Origin: Oceanirhabdus sp. W0125-5
GTDB taxonomy: Bacteria; Bacillota; Clostridia; Clostridiales; Clostridiaceae
Assembly: GCF_027938815.1 (NCBI RefSeq)
Contig: NZ_CP115913.1
Location: 3,196,001 to 3,260,000 of the forward strand
DNA length: 64,000 nt
Direction of reading: 5' to 3'
The notes beneath the pieces are model-generated. The model was not told the origin of the DNA. It saw nothing but the letters and a program-made list of their open reading frames with translations, and ran no database searches. Positions 4,455 to 43,949 of this stretch are shown here, in pieces. Both the position numbers and the translations under genes were made by a program. The stretch's first letter is position 1; each line of letters starts with the position of its first letter.

Positions 4455-5564
4455 GTGTTGAAAGTAATGAAAATCAATAAAGCGTATAAATTCAGAATAT
4501 ATCCAAATGAAAATCAAATAGAGATTATTGAAAAATCTTTTGGTTGTTCAAGATATGTATATAATCATTTCTTAAACCAAAGGAATGAAATATATAAAGC
4601 AGAAAAAAGATGTATGAAATATACAGAACAACAAAATCAATTACCAAGTATGAAAAAAGAACTTGTATGGCTTAAAGAAGTTGATAGTACATCACTGCAG
4701 ATGTCAATAAGAAATCTTGATGCTGCATTCAAAAATTTCTTTGAAGGTAGAGCAGACAGACCAAAATTCAAAAGTAAAAGAGACAACTATAAAACATATA
4801 CAAGTAATTTTGTGAATAACAATATTGAAATTAAAAAAAATAAAATAAAACTGCCTAAATTGAAATATGTTAATGCAAAAATTCATAGATATTTTGAAGG
4901 TAGAGTAATAAATGCTACTGTTTCTAAAACATCAAGTGGTAAATATTTTGTATCTATATGTGTTGAAACAAAGATAGAGCCATTAAAAAAAGTATCGGGG
5001 AATGTTGGTATAGACTTAGGGTTATGTCATTTTGCAATATTATCAAATGGTGAAAAGATTGAAAATCCTAAGTATCTAAAAAAGTCATTAGATAAATTGG
5101 CAAAGGAACAAAGAAAATTAAGTAGTAAAGAAAAAGACAGTAACAATTGGAATAAGCAAAGAATAAAGGTTGCTAGACTACATGAACGTATATCTAATCA
5201 AAGATTAGACTTCATCCATAAGCTATCTAAAAGAATTATAAGCGATAATCAAGTTATAATTCTTGAAGATTTATCAGTTAAAAATATGATGAAGAATGAT
5301 AAATTAGCTCAAAGTATTTCAGATGCAAGTTGGTATAAATTTGTTACTATTCTAGATTATAAGGCAAAATGGTATGGAAGAAAAATTCATAAAATAAATA
5401 GATGGTATCCATCATCTAAAACATGCAATAATTGTGATCATGTTTTAGATGAAATGCCAATGCATATAAGAGAATGGAAATGTCCTAAATGCGATAGCAT
5501 TCATGATAGGGATATAAATGCCAGTAGGAATATCTTGAAGCAAGGGTTATTAGAAATAGCCTAA
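4455..5564 (+). CDS. tnpB: TnpB, RNA-guided RuvC-type nuclease of IS200/IS605
   Basis: 369 residues, the usual TnpB length. N-terminal KAYKFRIYPNENQ and WLKEVDST are family hallmarks; the split RuvC site is complete (D in VGIDLGL, E in IILEDLSV, D in HDRDINAS) and a four-Cys zinc ribbon is present (CNNC...CPKC) before the last Asp. Known TnpBs use a right-end-derived RNA to cut target DNA next to a TAM that equals the insertion site, promoting retention of the element. GTG at 4455 starts the longest frame; ATG at 4467, 11 bases after AAAGGTG, gives the more typical N-terminus MKINKAYKF and may be the true start. It is 60 percent-like to, but clearly diverged from, the copy at 52007 by eye. 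Confidence 0.9.
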   Translation: MLKVMKINKAYKFRIYPNENQIEIIEKSFGCSRYVYNHFLNQRNEIYKAEKRCMKYTEQQNQLPSMKKELVWLKEVDSTSLQMSIRNLDAAFKNFFEGRADRPKFKSKRDNYKTYTSNFVNNNIEIKKNKIKLPKLKYVNAKIHRYFEGRVINATVSKTSSGKYFVSICVETKIEPLKKVSGNVGIDLGLCHFAILSNGEKIENPKYLKKSLDKLAKEQRKLSSKEKDSNNWNKQRIKVARLHERISNQRLDFIHKLSKRIISDNQVIILEDLSVKNMMKNDKLAQSISDASWYKFVTILDYKAKWYGRKIHKINRWYPSSKTCNNCDHVLDEMPMHIREWKCPKCDSIHDRDINASRNILKQGLLEIA

Positions 5565-5696
5565 AAAAATAAGAACCGTAGGTCTTACGGGGATAGCCTG
5601 TGGAGAAAGTAGATTGCGAAATCTGTGAAGCAGGAAAAGTTCTTGGATACACCAAGAAGCCCCCACTTCAGCGTGAGTAAGTGGAGGGTAGTTCAC
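5450..5696 (+). ncRNA. Putative TnpB guide RNA (omega/reRNA), copy 1
   Basis: The 3' end of tnpB and the 130 bases to the right end form the position where these elements encode their guide RNA. Structured parts are visible: GAACCGTAGGTCTTACGG, ACTTTTCC-type arms, CTTGGATACACCAAG, and the end hairpin CCCCCACTTC/GTAAGTGGAGGG. If it follows known elements, the guide is the flanking DNA just after 5696 (about 5697-5716). The 5' boundary is a guess. Confidence 0.55.
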
Positions 5697-5762
5697 TTAT
5701 ATTTGTAGATAATTTATAATTTTACAAAGTCTAATTCAAGCGATTATGGTTGAATCTTCACT

Positions 5763-6165
5763 GTCTTTTTGTGTTTTGTAAATTGTATGGTTTGAAATTT
5801 GAGTTGCCTTTTTTTATCTGTTTAATATTAGCAAAAAATAAATAATCAATTCCTTTAAGTTTAATTTCTAGGAATTGATTATTTACCAAATTCTAATTTA
5901 ATCAGAAATACATTTTCTTCTATTAAAAACATTCCCTTCTTACTAATTTTACTTCTAAAAATCAAATCATCTCTAAAGATTGAGAATTAAATAAAATCTC
6001 TAAATCCTTAATTCTTTTTTCATTTCTAATTAAATATATTTTTAATAAAGCTTTAAAAGGTATTACTTTGAAAACACAGTTACTTGTAGATTAACTTTCT
6101 AATTATAACATAAATGATTTAAAAAATCTACAAGTTATCTGAATCTTCTTAACTTTCATTCTTGC
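5763..6165. repeat. 0.4-kb intergenic repeat, copy A (direct repeat with 13559-14013)
   Basis: About 400 bases roughly 90 percent identical, by eye, to 13559-14013 in the same orientation. Contains a perfect 14-base inverted repeat AATAATCAATTCCT (5839-5852) / AGGAATTGATTATT, and an 11-base pair ACTTGTAGATT / AATCTACAAGT (6081-6132). On the minus strand there is TATAAT near 6107-6102 and, 250 bases on, the 14-base hairpin followed by TTATTTTTT, i.e. promoter and terminator enclosing a transcript of about 250 nt. No intact protein frame runs through both copies: the best minus frame is broken by stops and by a one-base indel between copies. Copy B carries ~54 extra bases near 13895-13948. Confidence 0.75.
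5839..5882 (-). terminator. Terminator of the putative minus-strand transcript in repeat copy A
   Basis: Perfect 14-base stem AATAATCAATTCCT/AGGAATTGATTATT with a 15-base loop; on the minus strand it is followed by TTATTTTTTGC. The same structure ends the unit in copy B (13637-13680). Confidence 0.6.
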
Positions 6166-39112: not shown

Positions 39113-39334
39113 TTATAAGTTATCCTTACCATAATACTTTAACAGCTGTTCAATTTTATGTGAACATCTTTTTCCTTTGCAGCCGCATGAGCCAGAACCG
39201 GTTACTTTATTAATCTCCTCAACAGTGCTGGCACCTTCTTTTATAGCATTTTTTATTTTAGATCTTGATATAGCGTTACATATACATACCTTTGTCAATT
39301 TATCTAAAATTTCTTGGTTTACTTTTTTATCCAT
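39113..39334 (-). CDS. BFD-like [2Fe-2S] protein
   Basis: 73 residues. The helix-turn-helix BFD domain binds one [2Fe-2S] cluster: Cys pair in VCICNAIS, then IKEGASTVEEINKVTGSGSCGC. The second pair is CGC followed by KGKRC, a small variant of the usual CxxC. Such proteins pass electrons or release iron from stores. It lies 2 bases downstream of the PNPOx gene and must be cotranscribed with it. Two further BFD domains occur nearby in the protein at 43178. Confidence 0.85.
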   Translation of the reverse strand: MDKKVNQEILDKLTKVCICNAISRSKIKNAIKEGASTVEEINKVTGSGSCGCKGKRCSHKIEQLLKYYGKDNL

Positions 39335-39336
39335 GA

Positions 39337-39741
39337 TTAAGAGGTATATTCTGCTGGAGGATTACCAGAAAAATCAGCAATAACAGCTTTTGCATCCTCA
39401 AGATAGAAAATTTCAAAAGTTGGATTTTCTGCTGTTTGGTAAATTGATTTTACAAGTTCACTGTGTTCAATGATAGCTTTCTTGATTTCAATATCATTTG
39501 AAAAAACAGCTTTCCCACTTAATCTAATCCATGCAAATGTAGGACTAGAAACAGAGAGTTCAACATAGGGACATTCTTTTATTTCCGCATAAACATCCTT
39601 CTGATTACTTGTACAGAAATATAGTTTGCCTTTTTGTTCAAGCATAAATTGGAAAGGACGTACCTTCGGTTTACCATCTAATCCAATTGTTGCGAAATAC
39701 TGTACAGGGTTTTTAATCAAAAATTTTACTACTTCATTCAT
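39337..39741 (-). CDS. Pyridoxamine-5'-phosphate-oxidase-family flavoprotein
   Basis: 134 residues, the single split-barrel size. Typical features are YFATIGLDGKPKVRPFQFM, KLYFCTSNQKDVYAEI and WIRLSGKAVFSND. These proteins bind FMN or F420 and reduce small molecules. GGAGGTATAT precedes the start on the minus strand. It forms a two-gene unit with the BFD-like protein and is divergent from the HxlR regulator at 39967, which probably controls it. Confidence 0.88.
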   Translation of the reverse strand: MNEVVKFLIKNPVQYFATIGLDGKPKVRPFQFMLEQKGKLYFCTSNQKDVYAEIKECPYVELSVSSPTFAWIRLSGKAVFSNDIEIKKAIIEHSELVKSIYQTAENPTFEIFYLEDAKAVIADFSGNPPAEYTS

Positions 39742-39966: not shown

Positions 39967-40290
39967 ATGAAAAAAGATTTGCCTAAATGTCCTGTAGAAA
40001 TAACACTTGCATTGATAGGTGAAAAGTGGAAGGTATTAATATTACGAGATCTTATAAATGGAACAAAGCGATTTGGAGAATTAAAAGCCTCAATTGGCTC
40101 TATTAGCCAAAAAGTTCTCACTCAACAATTGAGATCTATGGAAGAACATGGGTTGGTAACAAGAAAAGTCTATGCTGAGGTTCCTCCTAAGGTGGAATAT
40201 TCATTAACAAAACTTGGGACAAGTCTTAAACCCATACTTGATTCTATGTGGAATTGGGGAGAGAAGTACAAAAAACAAATAGATGAGTAA
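39967..40290 (+). CDS. HxlR-family redox/aldehyde-type regulator
   Basis: 107 residues, full winged-helix HxlR protein: CPVEITLALIGEKWKVLILRDL, FGELKASIGSISQKVLTQQLRSMEEHGL, RKVYAEVPPKVEYSLT, GTSLKPILDSMWNWG. The single Cys near residue 9 (LPKCPVE) is at the position that senses thiol or electrophile stress in YodB/HypR. ATAGGAGG is 7 bases before ATG. It probably controls the divergent PNPOx-BFD pair. Confidence 0.93.
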   Translation: MKKDLPKCPVEITLALIGEKWKVLILRDLINGTKRFGELKASIGSISQKVLTQQLRSMEEHGLVTRKVYAEVPPKVEYSLTKLGTSLKPILDSMWNWGEKYKKQIDE

Positions 40291-40345: not shown

Positions 40346-40462
40346 TATTTATAATAGTTTTGAATTGTTTCATTATGATAGTTTTTGGTCGTAGAATAAC
40401 ATTACAAAAATGAAGAAAGAATTATATAATGAGGGTAGTTTTTAGTGAAGAGAGGTAATCTT

Positions 40463-41611
40463 ATGAATAAGGTAGAACGAATAAAGTTTAGAAATAAGAA
40501 AAAAAATAAAGGTTTCGAAATTATTTCTTTGAAAAGTTTTTTTGAAGCTGCCAATACTTCCTTCATTAGAAAACATTTTCGTACTGATTTTTACAATTTG
40601 ATTTTCGTTACAGAAGGTAAAATCGTTCATGAAATTGATTTTATAGAATATACAGTTAGAGCAGGAGAAATTTTAATTATTTCAAAGGATCGTGTTCATA
40701 GATATAGTGAGTTTGAGAATATAGATGGTTATCTAATCATGTTTACAGAGGGATTTCTATGTGAATTTCTAAGTAATGATACTACAGAAGTAAAAGAGTT
40801 GTTTAGGGAAAGTTATTTGAATCCACTTGTAAATTTTATAGTTTTATATACTTCAACTTTAACAAAGCTTTTAGATGTTATTCATGATATGTACAGAAAT
40901 GTTGATGAGGTTGTGAATTATAAGGTAATTGCTTCAGCTTTCAAAACACTTGTATCCATAATATTGAATAGCAGCTTGAGAGAAGATACTTCAAGACAAA
41001 TAAAAAATGAAATTTTTATACAGTTTACTAAATTAGTAGAAGAAAATATTCATAAAGAGAAAAGGGTAGAAGGTTATGCTAATATGATGCATGTGTCTAA
41101 AAAGACAGTTAATTTAATGACACGAAAAGCTATTGATATGTCTGCAAAGCAATATATTATTAATCAGCTTATTTTGAAAATTAAACTTAAACTATGTTTT
41201 GAACAAAAAAGTATTAATGAAATTGCATATGAATTAGGTTTTACTGAGGCAGCTAATATGACTAGGTTTTTTAAAAAATACACAGGGCTTAGTCCTAGAA
41301 GATTTAGAAGTATCACTCGGAAAGAAAATAGCTGGATAAAGAATAAAAGCATGGATTTGAATTTAATTGAAGAATCTATTGAGAAACATGTATTTCATAT
41401 AACCTCTATGGCACAAGTTTCTCCACATATACATGAAGGGCTTGATGAAATATTTTATTGTATAAAGGGTTCCGGTTTCGCAGTATTAGAGGATAGGGAA
41501 GTAGAGTTGAATGTAGGAGACTTATTCATTGCTCCAGCTGGAACAATGCATTCCCTTAGGAGCGATGGGGATCTCTATGTAACTGCGTTTCTTATTCCTG
41601 TAGTGGATTAA
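40463..41611 (+). CDS. AraC-family regulator fused to a C-terminal cupin
   Basis: 382 residues. Residues ~1-95 form an N-terminal cupin-like sensor (FRTDFYNLIFVTEGKIVHEIDF), ~180-290 an AraC DNA-binding domain (VEGYANMMHVSKKTVNLMTRK, SINEIAYELGFTEAANMTRFF, GLSPRRFRS), and ~305-382 a second cupin with a full metal site: HIHEGLDEIFYCIKG (HxH-x4-E-x6-G) and APAGTMHSLR. The last domain is nearly the same as the N-terminus of the protein at 43178, including its MDLNLIEE start, so it looks like a fusion of an AraC gene to a neighbouring cupin gene. ATG 40463 has AGAGAGG 8 bases upstream. Confidence 0.88.
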   Translation: MNKVERIKFRNKKKNKGFEIISLKSFFEAANTSFIRKHFRTDFYNLIFVTEGKIVHEIDFIEYTVRAGEILIISKDRVHRYSEFENIDGYLIMFTEGFLCEFLSNDTTEVKELFRESYLNPLVNFIVLYTSTLTKLLDVIHDMYRNVDEVVNYKVIASAFKTLVSIILNSSLREDTSRQIKNEIFIQFTKLVEENIHKEKRVEGYANMMHVSKKTVNLMTRKAIDMSAKQYIINQLILKIKLKLCFEQKSINEIAYELGFTEAANMTRFFKKYTGLSPRRFRSITRKENSWIKNKSMDLNLIEESIEKHVFHITSMAQVSPHIHEGLDEIFYCIKGSGFAVLEDREVELNVGDLFIAPAGTMHSLRSDGDLYVTAFLIPVVD

Positions 41612-41698
41612 GATGAGAATATTTATATAATAAAAGAAGGTTGGCGTAGAGTAGTATTTGTCGGGCCTGACGGAGAATTGATAGAATTTAGAGGGTAA
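41612..41698 (+). pseudogene. C-terminal remnant of a glyoxalase/VOC-family protein
   Basis: Directly in frame after the AraC-cupin stop, 28 codons read DENIYIIKEGWRRVV...FVGPDGELIEFRG and end in TAA. The closing pattern VxFxGPDGELIEF is the typical last strand of VOC proteins. No start or ribosome site; the front of the gene is lost. Confidence 0.6.
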
Positions 41699-41765
41699 TA
41701 GTTACTAAATATGAACCTATCTGTGTAAATTTTGTATAAGATGTATCAATGAATGTAACTATGCA

Positions 41766-41806
41766 GACTTGAAGTCAATTTTGATTTCAAGTCTTTAGTT
41801 TTTTTA
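41766..41806 (+). terminator. Terminator after the AraC-cupin gene
   Basis: GACTTGAA and TTCAAGTC pair (core also AAGTCAA/TTGATTT), followed by TTTAGTTTTTTT. Confidence 0.75.
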
Positions 41807-41810
41807 AGTA

Positions 41811-41975
41811 ATGGTAATAAATATAGTTGGTTCAGTAGCAATCTTAATACCTACTTTATTTATAGGTTCAAAAATAAATGGATATATAGAAATGTTACTT
41901 GGTCTTGGTATTGAACAAATTATAATAGGTGCAATAGCTGTGAGTATTGGTGAAAATCAGTTGAAAGTGGATTAG
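41811..41975 (+). pseudogene. Remnant of a membrane-protein gene (54 aa)
   Basis: ATG 41811 opens 54 hydrophobic codons (VGSVAILIPTLFIG, IEMLLGLGIEQIIIGAIAVSIG) with two membrane helices and a charged tail. There is no ribosome site; it begins right after the terminator T-run. It is more likely the tail of a lost permease than a real small protein. Confidence 0.4.
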
Positions 41976-42036
41976 AATTAAACTAACTACTATAGAATTT
42001 GCTCTCTGTTATAAATAATTGAAGGGAGGGGGTATT

Positions 42037-42909
42037 ATGACATCTATTAAACGCATCAAATATAGAAATAGTATGAAAGAGGATTCTGATTTCGAGATTG
42101 TAGATCTACAACTATTTTTTGCTACTAGACCCCACTGGCATTTGAAGCGAGATAATCGGATTGATTTTTGGGTGATTATCTATATTACAGATGGAGAAGG
42201 ATACCATGTTGTAGATTTTGACAGATATGCATATAAAGCTGGTGATGTGATTATTGTTCAGAAGAATCAGGTTCAGAATTTTGAGATTAATAATCTTGCT
42301 AAAGGTTATGTGATACATATTAATGAGCCTTTCTTTTTTGAAGGTGAAGGCATAAGTAGTAAAACATTTCTTGAATTTTTTGACCGACCCTATAAATCAC
42401 CAATTTTATCCATAGATAATTCTGTTGAGACAATGAATAGAGCAATAATCGAGTTGATTTATAAAGAGTATATGAAAATCAATGAGGAGAGTAATGAAGA
42501 TTTGATCAGGTCTTTGTTTCAAAGTTTTATATTATCTTTAAATGAATTTTATTATAAAAGTAAACAGTCGGCAGAAACAGCTGTATTTCGAACATACAAC
42601 CAGTTTCGTCAGTTGGTTGAGGCTAATTATACTGAGAAAAAGACAGTTGAAGATTATGCTCAGATGATGCTTGTATCTAAGAAGACAATAAACTATGCGA
42701 CTAGGACTATTGTAGGTTTATCTGCTAAACAATATATAATTAATAGGATTATTCTTGAAATCAAAAGATATCTGAGTCAGGGCGAGTTACTAATTTATGA
42801 AATATCAGATTTGCTAGGTTTTGATGAGCCGGCAAATATGACTAAGTTTTTTAAAAGATTTGAAGGAGTATCCCCTAAGGCATTTCGGAAAGAGCATAGT
42901 GTAAGATAA
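42037..42909 (+). CDS. AraC-family regulator, paralogue of the AraC-cupin
   Basis: 290 residues. Cupin-like sensor at ~25-105 (RIDFWVIIYITDGEGYHVVDFDRY, KAGDVIIVQKNQVQNF) and two AraC HTHs at ~190-290 (TVEDYAQMMLVSKKTINYATR, EISDLLGFDEPANMTKFFKRF, GVSPKAFRKE). It shares the start SIKRIKYRN/VERIKFRN and the domain order with the protein at 40463 but lacks the fused cupin. GGGAGGGGG is 5 bases before ATG 42037. The cupin-BFD gene lies 268 bases downstream and is a probable target or partner. Confidence 0.9.
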   Translation: MTSIKRIKYRNSMKEDSDFEIVDLQLFFATRPHWHLKRDNRIDFWVIIYITDGEGYHVVDFDRYAYKAGDVIIVQKNQVQNFEINNLAKGYVIHINEPFFFEGEGISSKTFLEFFDRPYKSPILSIDNSVETMNRAIIELIYKEYMKINEESNEDLIRSLFQSFILSLNEFYYKSKQSAETAVFRTYNQFRQLVEANYTEKKTVEDYAQMMLVSKKTINYATRTIVGLSAKQYIINRIILEIKRYLSQGELLIYEISDLLGFDEPANMTKFFKRFEGVSPKAFRKEHSVR

Positions 42910-43014: not shown

Positions 43015-43177
43015 ACGTTCTATACCTTTAAATTTTATAATAGTTCATTAGATGACTTGGCTCATAAAAGGTTTCATTATAACAGCTTTTGGTTTCAGAA
43101 TAATATTACAAAGAAGAGTAAAGATTGATAAAATAATAACAAATAAAGTGTAAATAAAGATCAAAAGGAGAGAAAGT

Positions 43178-43741
43178 ATGGATATAAATTTAATAAAAGA
43201 AGCTATTGAGACAAAGGTATATCATATACCTTCTGATTTGATAGTTCCACATCATAGACATGAAGATAGAGATGAAATATTTTATTGCATAAAAGGGTCA
43301 GGGTTTGGCATATCTGAAGATGGAGAAGTAGAACTGAATGTAGGAGATTCATTTGTCGCCCCTGCTGGAACAATACATTCTATGAGAAGTGATGGAGAGA
43401 TGTATGTAGTAGCGGTTCTTATACCTGTAAATAGAATTATTTGTCACTGTAAACAAGTGAGTTATGTTGATATTAGGAAAGCAATGGTTGGCGGTGCTCG
43501 TACTTTAGAGGAAATTCAAGAACTTACAGGCGCAGGGACAGGTTGCGGTGGATGTATTGGAGAGGTAGAAAGAATATTATCAATAGCATGCGGATGTAAA
43601 GGTGTTTCTATGGAAACCGTTGTCAATGCAGTTAAAGATGGAGCAGACACCATTGAAAAAGTTGGTGAAGCAACAGGCGCAGGTACTGATTGTGGAAGAT
43701 GTAAACTTCTTTTACAAAACATAATTGATACTAAAAAGTAA
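43178..43741 (+). CDS. Cupin fused to two BFD-like [2Fe-2S] domains
   Basis: 187 residues. Residues 1-84: cupin with complete metal site (His26, His28, Glu33 in HHRHEDRDEIFYCIKG; His67 in APAGTIHS). Residues 87-134: BFD domain with Cys89/Cys91 (IICHCK) and Cys123/Cys126 (GTGCGGC). Residues 136-184: a second BFD domain with Cys138/Cys140 (ACGCK) and Cys172/Cys175 (TDCGRC). It could therefore hold one metal plus two [2Fe-2S] clusters. An electron-transfer or iron/redox-sensing role is inferred; no enzyme activity is assigned. AAAAGGAGAG is 8 bases before ATG. It follows two related AraC genes. Confidence 0.85.
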   Translation: MDINLIKEAIETKVYHIPSDLIVPHHRHEDRDEIFYCIKGSGFGISEDGEVELNVGDSFVAPAGTIHSMRSDGEMYVVAVLIPVNRIICHCKQVSYVDIRKAMVGGARTLEEIQELTGAGTGCGGCIGEVERILSIACGCKGVSMETVVNAVKDGADTIEKVGEATGAGTDCGRCKLLLQNIIDTKK

Positions 43742-43787
43742 TTATTGAAAGTAATAATGAAGTAATAAGATTAAATAGTGTAACTAT

Positions 43788-43830
43788 AAAGGCTTGAAAT
43801 AAATTACGATTTCAAGCCTTTAGTTATTTT
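43788..43830 (+). terminator. Terminator after the cupin-BFD gene
   Basis: AAAGGCTTGAAAT and ATTTCAAGCCTTT pair perfectly with an 8-base loop, then TAGTTATTTT. Confidence 0.85.
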
Positions 43831-43949
43831 AAATGTGAGATTAGTTAATATTACTGGTTCTTTATATATGTCTATATTGTTGTATATAAAATTTTATGGT
43901 GATAAAATAGTAATAATGGAAATAAAAGGATTCATAAGGGAGTGAGTTT

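Follow-up and report, generated by a model that had tools for sequence, protein, structure and literature searches.

The gene at positions 43178..43741 (+) of the window, i.e., the whole 64,000-nucleotide stretch of Oceanirhabdus sp. W0125-5 DNA analyzed here, encodes a protein of 187 aa that is composed of three domains: a cupin (residues 1–84), BFD1 (85–135) and BFD2 (136–187). The ORF boundaries are exact, and the ATG start codon is preceded by a good ribosome-binding site (aaaaggagag). Cupin_2 (PF07883) was found at residues 22–80 (E 7.8e-12, 45.2 bits against a cut-off of 27.2) and Fer2_BFD (PF04324) in two stretches (E 3.7e-28, 98 bits against 26, the best at residues 87–134), which singly score 59.7 and 50.4 bits, so both matches exceed the curated Pfam cut-offs. 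Each BFD domain has the four cysteines that mark Fer2_BFD membership (C89/91/123/126 and C138/140/172/175), arranged as two complete CxC-x31-CxxC motifs starting at residues 89 and 138; when the protein was shuffled 20,000 times, no such pair arose. The 3-His/1-Glu (HxH/E/H) metal ligands of the cupin, H26, H28, E33, and H67, are intact and invariant in a 22-row alignment, as is a ninth cysteine, C37, that lies inside the cupin. The earlier note had described a cupin-BFD-BFD architecture with eight cluster cysteines and a complete cupin metal site, and the ORF, the Pfam matches, the motifs, the full-length relatives and the structural model bear out both descriptions.

The AlphaFold model built from the 22-row alignment (mean pLDDT 79.6) consists of a β-barrel cupin (residues 1–85) and two helix-pair BFD units. 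Fold comparison with Foldseek and VIA recovered the cupin part alone, the first 85 residues matching cupins (VIA match to 1v70, Z 11.4, 79 residues, rmsd 2.1), and the assignment of the BFD part comes from profile and sequence matches, with residues 137–183 matching the Bfd structures 6e6r/4e6k and further homology to the central domains of NifU/NirB. A match of the BFD region to a TALE protein (Hax3) was rejected as a sum of weak repeats, none of which passes singly. The protein resembles Bfd in its CxC-x31-CxxC motif, present twice, and in its sequence match to the solved Bfd structures; however, it scores only 29.3 bits against the NCBIfam Bfd equivalog PRK10509 (cut-off 75), its BFD domains form a tandem pair C-terminal to a cupin, and no bacterioferritin gene was recognized nearby. 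From their cysteine motifs the tandem BFD domains are predicted to carry [2Fe-2S] clusters, and the cupin would presumably bind a metal or a ligand. One intact BFD may be sufficient for function, since cysteines are lost from BFD2 in the L063 copy and from BFD1 in the L076 copy, and the L026 protein has one BFD.

The homology to Bfd and to the NifU/NirB domains also brings in the management of iron or Fe-S clusters, in which, by analogy with the role of Bfd for bacterioferritin, the BFD pair would hold, hand over or repair clusters or mobilize iron, with the cupin serving as an iron site. A stand-alone single BFD protein encoded within the same cluster of the window (39113..39334 (-), 73 aa, Fer2_BFD E 6e-12) fits with such a role. 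Yet the listed neighbors of the cupin-BFD loci included no recognizable ferritin, isc, nif or suf gene, and the link to an AraC-family regulator and the redox-stress neighbors described below would be left unexplained. This explanation is considered unlikely, and less likely than the two that are discussed further on.

Thirteen cupin-BFD proteins were counted in 11 genomes, the window included, and the full architecture is present in Bacillota, Fusobacteriota and Bacteroidota. Short peptide patterns, run against 84,980 species genomes, located it in Ancylomarina, Labilibaculum and Marinifilum (Bacteroidota), in Propionigenium maris (Fusobacteriota), in a Bacillota MAG and in two uncultured Clostridium MAGs, one of the latter with a single BFD; whole-genome searches added a second P. 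maris copy and, in three other Fusobacteriota genomes, four more. Cupin-BFD proteins occur in 3/225 genomes of the window's order and in 4/98 Fusobacteriota, in the organism's own genome only among 398 genomes sampled across the phylum, and in the center genome only among 295 genomes of a Bacteroidota order. The architecture is thus rare but not unique. The relatives that share the whole architecture are 66–78% identical, and the pairwise dN/dS of about 0.08–0.24 over the full coding sequence indicates a protein maintained by purifying selection. A chance ORF, a frameshift or an assembly artefact was rejected in view of the full-length relatives in three phyla, the low dN/dS and the conserved ligands, and a mobile-element or phage origin was rejected because the gene had no match in the plasmids or viral contigs searched.

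The two halves are far commoner as separate proteins, i.e., an 86-aa cupin and a tandem BFD of about 106 aa. The latter is common in the window's family, so the statement that BFD domains normally occur alone or on nitrite reductase/NifU-like proteins was incomplete. In the BFD tree the domains of the fusion proteins are separated, with modest support (89/84), from most of the tandem BFDs that stand alone, which is consistent with one fusion followed by spread but is not proof of it; the cupin tree is poorly resolved, and the order of the fusion events cannot be read from the trees. One subclade of stand-alone tandem BFDs (L005, L049–L052, L074, L092, L095) lacks the second cysteine of the first CxC, having K, T, E or Q there, and has an additional cysteine immediately before the CxxC pair, which suggests an altered cluster site. 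In another locus (L007, 466–1761) HxlR, PNPOx and stand-alone 86-aa cupin genes stand in a row; these neighbors are those of the window, but there is no BFD.

Upstream of the cupin-BFD-BFD gene is that of an AraC-family regulator (40463..41611 (+), Pfam HTH_18 and Cupin_2), the C-terminus of which is formed by another copy of this cupin. This AraC-cupin protein is 382 aa long when counted from the ATG at 40463 (the ORF caller begins at the GTG at 40445), and its membership among AraC regulators is given by the two-helix AraC HTH (HTH_18) at ORF residues 211–288 (E 2.5e-16). It follows the general plan of AraC regulators with a cupin-type sensor, from which it differs by the extra cupin located after the HTH, and this cupin is 68% identical to that of the cupin-BFD-BFD protein. 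The two genes are adjacent in L022, L023, L097, L098, and L099; in the window they are 1.6 kb apart, with a second AraC-family gene between them (42019..42909 (+)) that has neither the extra cupin nor the promoter box described below. In L099 the AraC-cupin gene (4653–5831) is broken by an in-frame stop within the HTH, and the cupin-BFD-BFD gene that follows is intact. Among 323 sampled genomes, full-length AraC-cupin and cupin-BFD proteins were found in the same seven (3/225 of the order and 4/98 Fusobacteriota, related within each group).

In two Clostridium MAGs of one genus both proteins are united on a natural single chain, i.e., AraC-cupin-BFD-BFD of 487 aa in L025 (HTH_18 E 3.4e-15) and AraC-cupin-BFD of 438 aa, with one BFD, in L026. 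By sequence, these chains have BFD domains of the [2Fe-2S] type at the C-terminus of a DNA-binding protein, an addition to the usual AraC plan; the window encodes two separate proteins. For L025, the structural model of the fused chain (pLDDT 60.8, pTM 0.32) is too poor for domain contacts to be read from it. Cupin-BFD-BFD genes without an adjacent AraC-cupin gene were found in the three Bacteroidota genomes, in L096 and as one copy in L098, and the Bacteroidota genomes with cupin-BFD-BFD contain no full-length AraC-cupin protein at the threshold used. These copies imply that the protein can function by itself or together with some other partner.

Both window genes are preceded by a 64-nt repeat (D3), whose core is a 41-bp box located at 40368..40408 (+), 5′ of the AraC-cupin gene, and at 43072..43112 (+), 5′ of the cupin-BFD-BFD gene. 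None is expected by chance, as judged from shuffles of the window, and the box is conserved in relatives. All eight loci with the box have it, in ungapped comparison, in front of the AraC-cupin gene (window, L022, L023, L097, L098, L099) or the fused gene (L025, L026), and further copies are found in L022 before the cupin-BFD gene and before a VOC-PNPOx pair. By the same comparison it was undetected before the HxlR, PNPOx and second AraC genes of the window, before the Bacteroidota genes and before the two cupin-BFD copies without an adjacent AraC gene. A strict pattern found two boxes in the organism's own 5.78-Mb genome and a single one in each of six other genomes, there at the AraC gene, with no hit for a reversed-pattern control; this pattern missed all the weaker L022 copies before three genes, and degenerate sites may have been missed elsewhere. 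A larger regulon was rejected, since the strict-pattern whole-genome scans revealed no further sites, and the switch therefore looks local. This confinement within whole genomes implies that the box is probably the AraC-cupin protein's own candidate operator. Just upstream of the two fusobacterial cupin-BFD copies without an adjacent AraC gene lies a palindrome, TATATCTAATTAGATATA (L096 at about 5936, L098 at about 6226); a MarR gene runs divergently from the L096 copy, and in L098 a further MarR-like gene is nearby.

An HxlR-family regulator (39967..40290 (+)), for which the nearest NCBIfam family is RrpB although its 142 bits are below the cut-off of 175, has an N-terminal cysteine (in KCPV) that is also conserved in the HxlR neighbors of the Bacteroidota genes. 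Divergent from it is the gene of a PNPOx-like protein with an FMN/F420-type split barrel (39337..39741 (-), Pfam PNPOx_N), and the stand-alone BFD gene lies directly 3′ of the latter; PNPOx also adjoins the system in L022, and HxlR with the stand-alone cupin in L007. Right after the AraC-cupin gene, a frame translation compared with the VOC proteins of L022/L023 revealed the C-terminal remnant of a VOC/glyoxalase gene (41640..41697 (+), 20 residues, EGWRRVVFVGPDGELIEFRG*). Since an intact VOC gene comes after cupin-BFD in Fusobacteriota, the remnant indicates that an ancestral operon, from which the window arrangement is apparently derived, suffered a deletion. Terminator-like hairpins follow the VOC remnant (41745-41807) and the cupin-BFD-BFD gene (43770-43832) and are 79% identical over 63 nt, as if the whole unit, promoter box and terminator included, had been copied. 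An open stretch at 41822-41976 (+) resembles the end of a membrane transporter (VGSVAILIPTLFIGSKINGYIEMLLGLGIEQIIIGAIAVSIGENQLKVD*), has no proper start and is possibly another gene remnant.

Across the loci the recurrent neighbors are RrpB-like HxlR regulators with the conserved cysteine, PNPOx flavoproteins, VOC, NmrA, Msr, OYE, and MATE, which point, by association only, to redox or electrophile stress. In Campylobacter jejuni, RrpA and RrpB are described as cysteine-based redox switches over quinone and flavin reductases (RrpA/MdaB and RrpB/NfrA; PMC8765430). The likeness lies in a cysteine-switch redox regulator, since both the window and the Bacteroidota loci encode a similar one near cupin-BFD; however, the abstract of that paper describes no cupin-BFD protein, and the window HxlR scores below the RrpB cut-off.

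Such neighbors resemble a detoxification set (VOC, PNPOx, NmrA, OYE, MATE, Msr), and this brings in the possibility of an enzyme for electron transfer or detoxification. In that case the cupin would work as a small metal oxygenase or reductase, with an aromatic compound, a quinone or an electrophile as its substrate, the BFD pair would shuttle electrons to or from the cupin or to flavoproteins (PNPOx, OYE, nitroreductase), and AraC-cupin would sense the same compound by its own cupin and induce the cupin-BFD-BFD gene. Among solved structures the cupin is closest in sequence to quercetin dioxygenase YxaG (to its C-terminal cupin, E 8.5e-10), which has the same metal-site pattern; in the window protein, though, a single small cupin carries a BFD tail, and the likeness is a sequence match at the level of the cupin only. 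Genes of cupin-BFD-BFD without AraC-cupin occur next to HxlR or MarR-type regulators, and some stand-alone tandem BFDs are found near nitroreductase-like and MarR genes. On the other hand, the presence of the same cupin inside a regulator and as an 86-aa stand-alone protein speaks for a binding module rather than a dedicated active site, the BFD is joined to a DNA-binding protein in the natural fusions, and substrate-specific residues cannot be argued. Because cupin-BFD-BFD also exists without AraC-cupin, an electron-transfer or detoxification role, though less likely than not, ranks close behind that of a redox co-sensor.

The role that is favored, held tentatively and at nearly an even chance, is that of a [2Fe-2S]/metal redox co-sensor in a small self-regulating AraC switch. 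In this concept AraC-cupin would control its own promoter and that of the cupin-BFD-BFD gene via the 41-bp box, and the two BFD [2Fe-2S] clusters would change their state, or be lost, under oxidant, electrophile or iron stress. As the domain common to both proteins, the cupin would provide a metal/ligand site and a dimerization surface, and the state of the clusters could be transmitted through it to the DNA-binding part of AraC; the AraC-cupin-BFD-BFD fusion would unite the same parts on a single chain. The cupin–cupin pairing, the binding of AraC to the box, the direction of regulation and the signal are what we infer here. The co-sensor is preferred because regulation is what the fusion, the co-occurrence and the dedicated box specifically point to, and because the cupin present in both proteins is a plausible contact surface; the conserved metal ligands and cluster cysteines and the redox-stress neighbors also speak for it. 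Against it count the cupin-BFD-BFD copies without an adjacent AraC-cupin gene, the fact that linkage and a common promoter equally suit an enzyme under AraC control, and the origin of the fusions from two MAGs of one genus.

The earlier note had offered a new Fe-S/metal redox sensor or an electron hub; the context favors the sensor, and the hub gained no specific support. That context, i.e., the AraC-cupin gene, the natural fusions, the shared promoter box and the redox-stress neighbors, was absent from the note. The most novel formulation, i.e., an AraC switch with a BFD-type [2Fe-2S] redox input, supplied either by a separate cupin-BFD-BFD protein docked via paired cupins or in-chain, is put forward as a possibility at rather less than an even chance. 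SoxR is a [2Fe-2S] redox-sensing regulator of the MerR family, in which the oxidation state of the cluster controls a transcription factor. The proposed switch would run likewise; however, it belongs to an unrelated family, and its cluster would reside on a separate cupin-BFD subunit or on the BFD tail of the AraC protein.

The cupin and BFD domains, and Fe-S regulators as an idea, are already known, and it is likely that such proteins are annotated elsewhere under generic names. In the open-access literature searched no description was found of cupin + BFD, AraC + BFD or tandem BFD proteins, nor of the AraC-cupin partner and AraC-cupin-BFD chains, nor any earlier case of an AraC regulator with a BFD-type Fe-S sensor, which is weak evidence of absence. 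Taken with its AraC partner, the cupin-BFD-BFD protein suggests a new kind of iron-sulphur-based bacterial redox switch. If true, an iron-sulphur redox input would be added to the large AraC family, in the form of a self-contained and portable redox switch that consists of one or two genes and has a 41-bp candidate operator. It would also suggest a role for a small cupin and a tandem-BFD protein, both recurrent in anaerobes, for which no assigned function was found.
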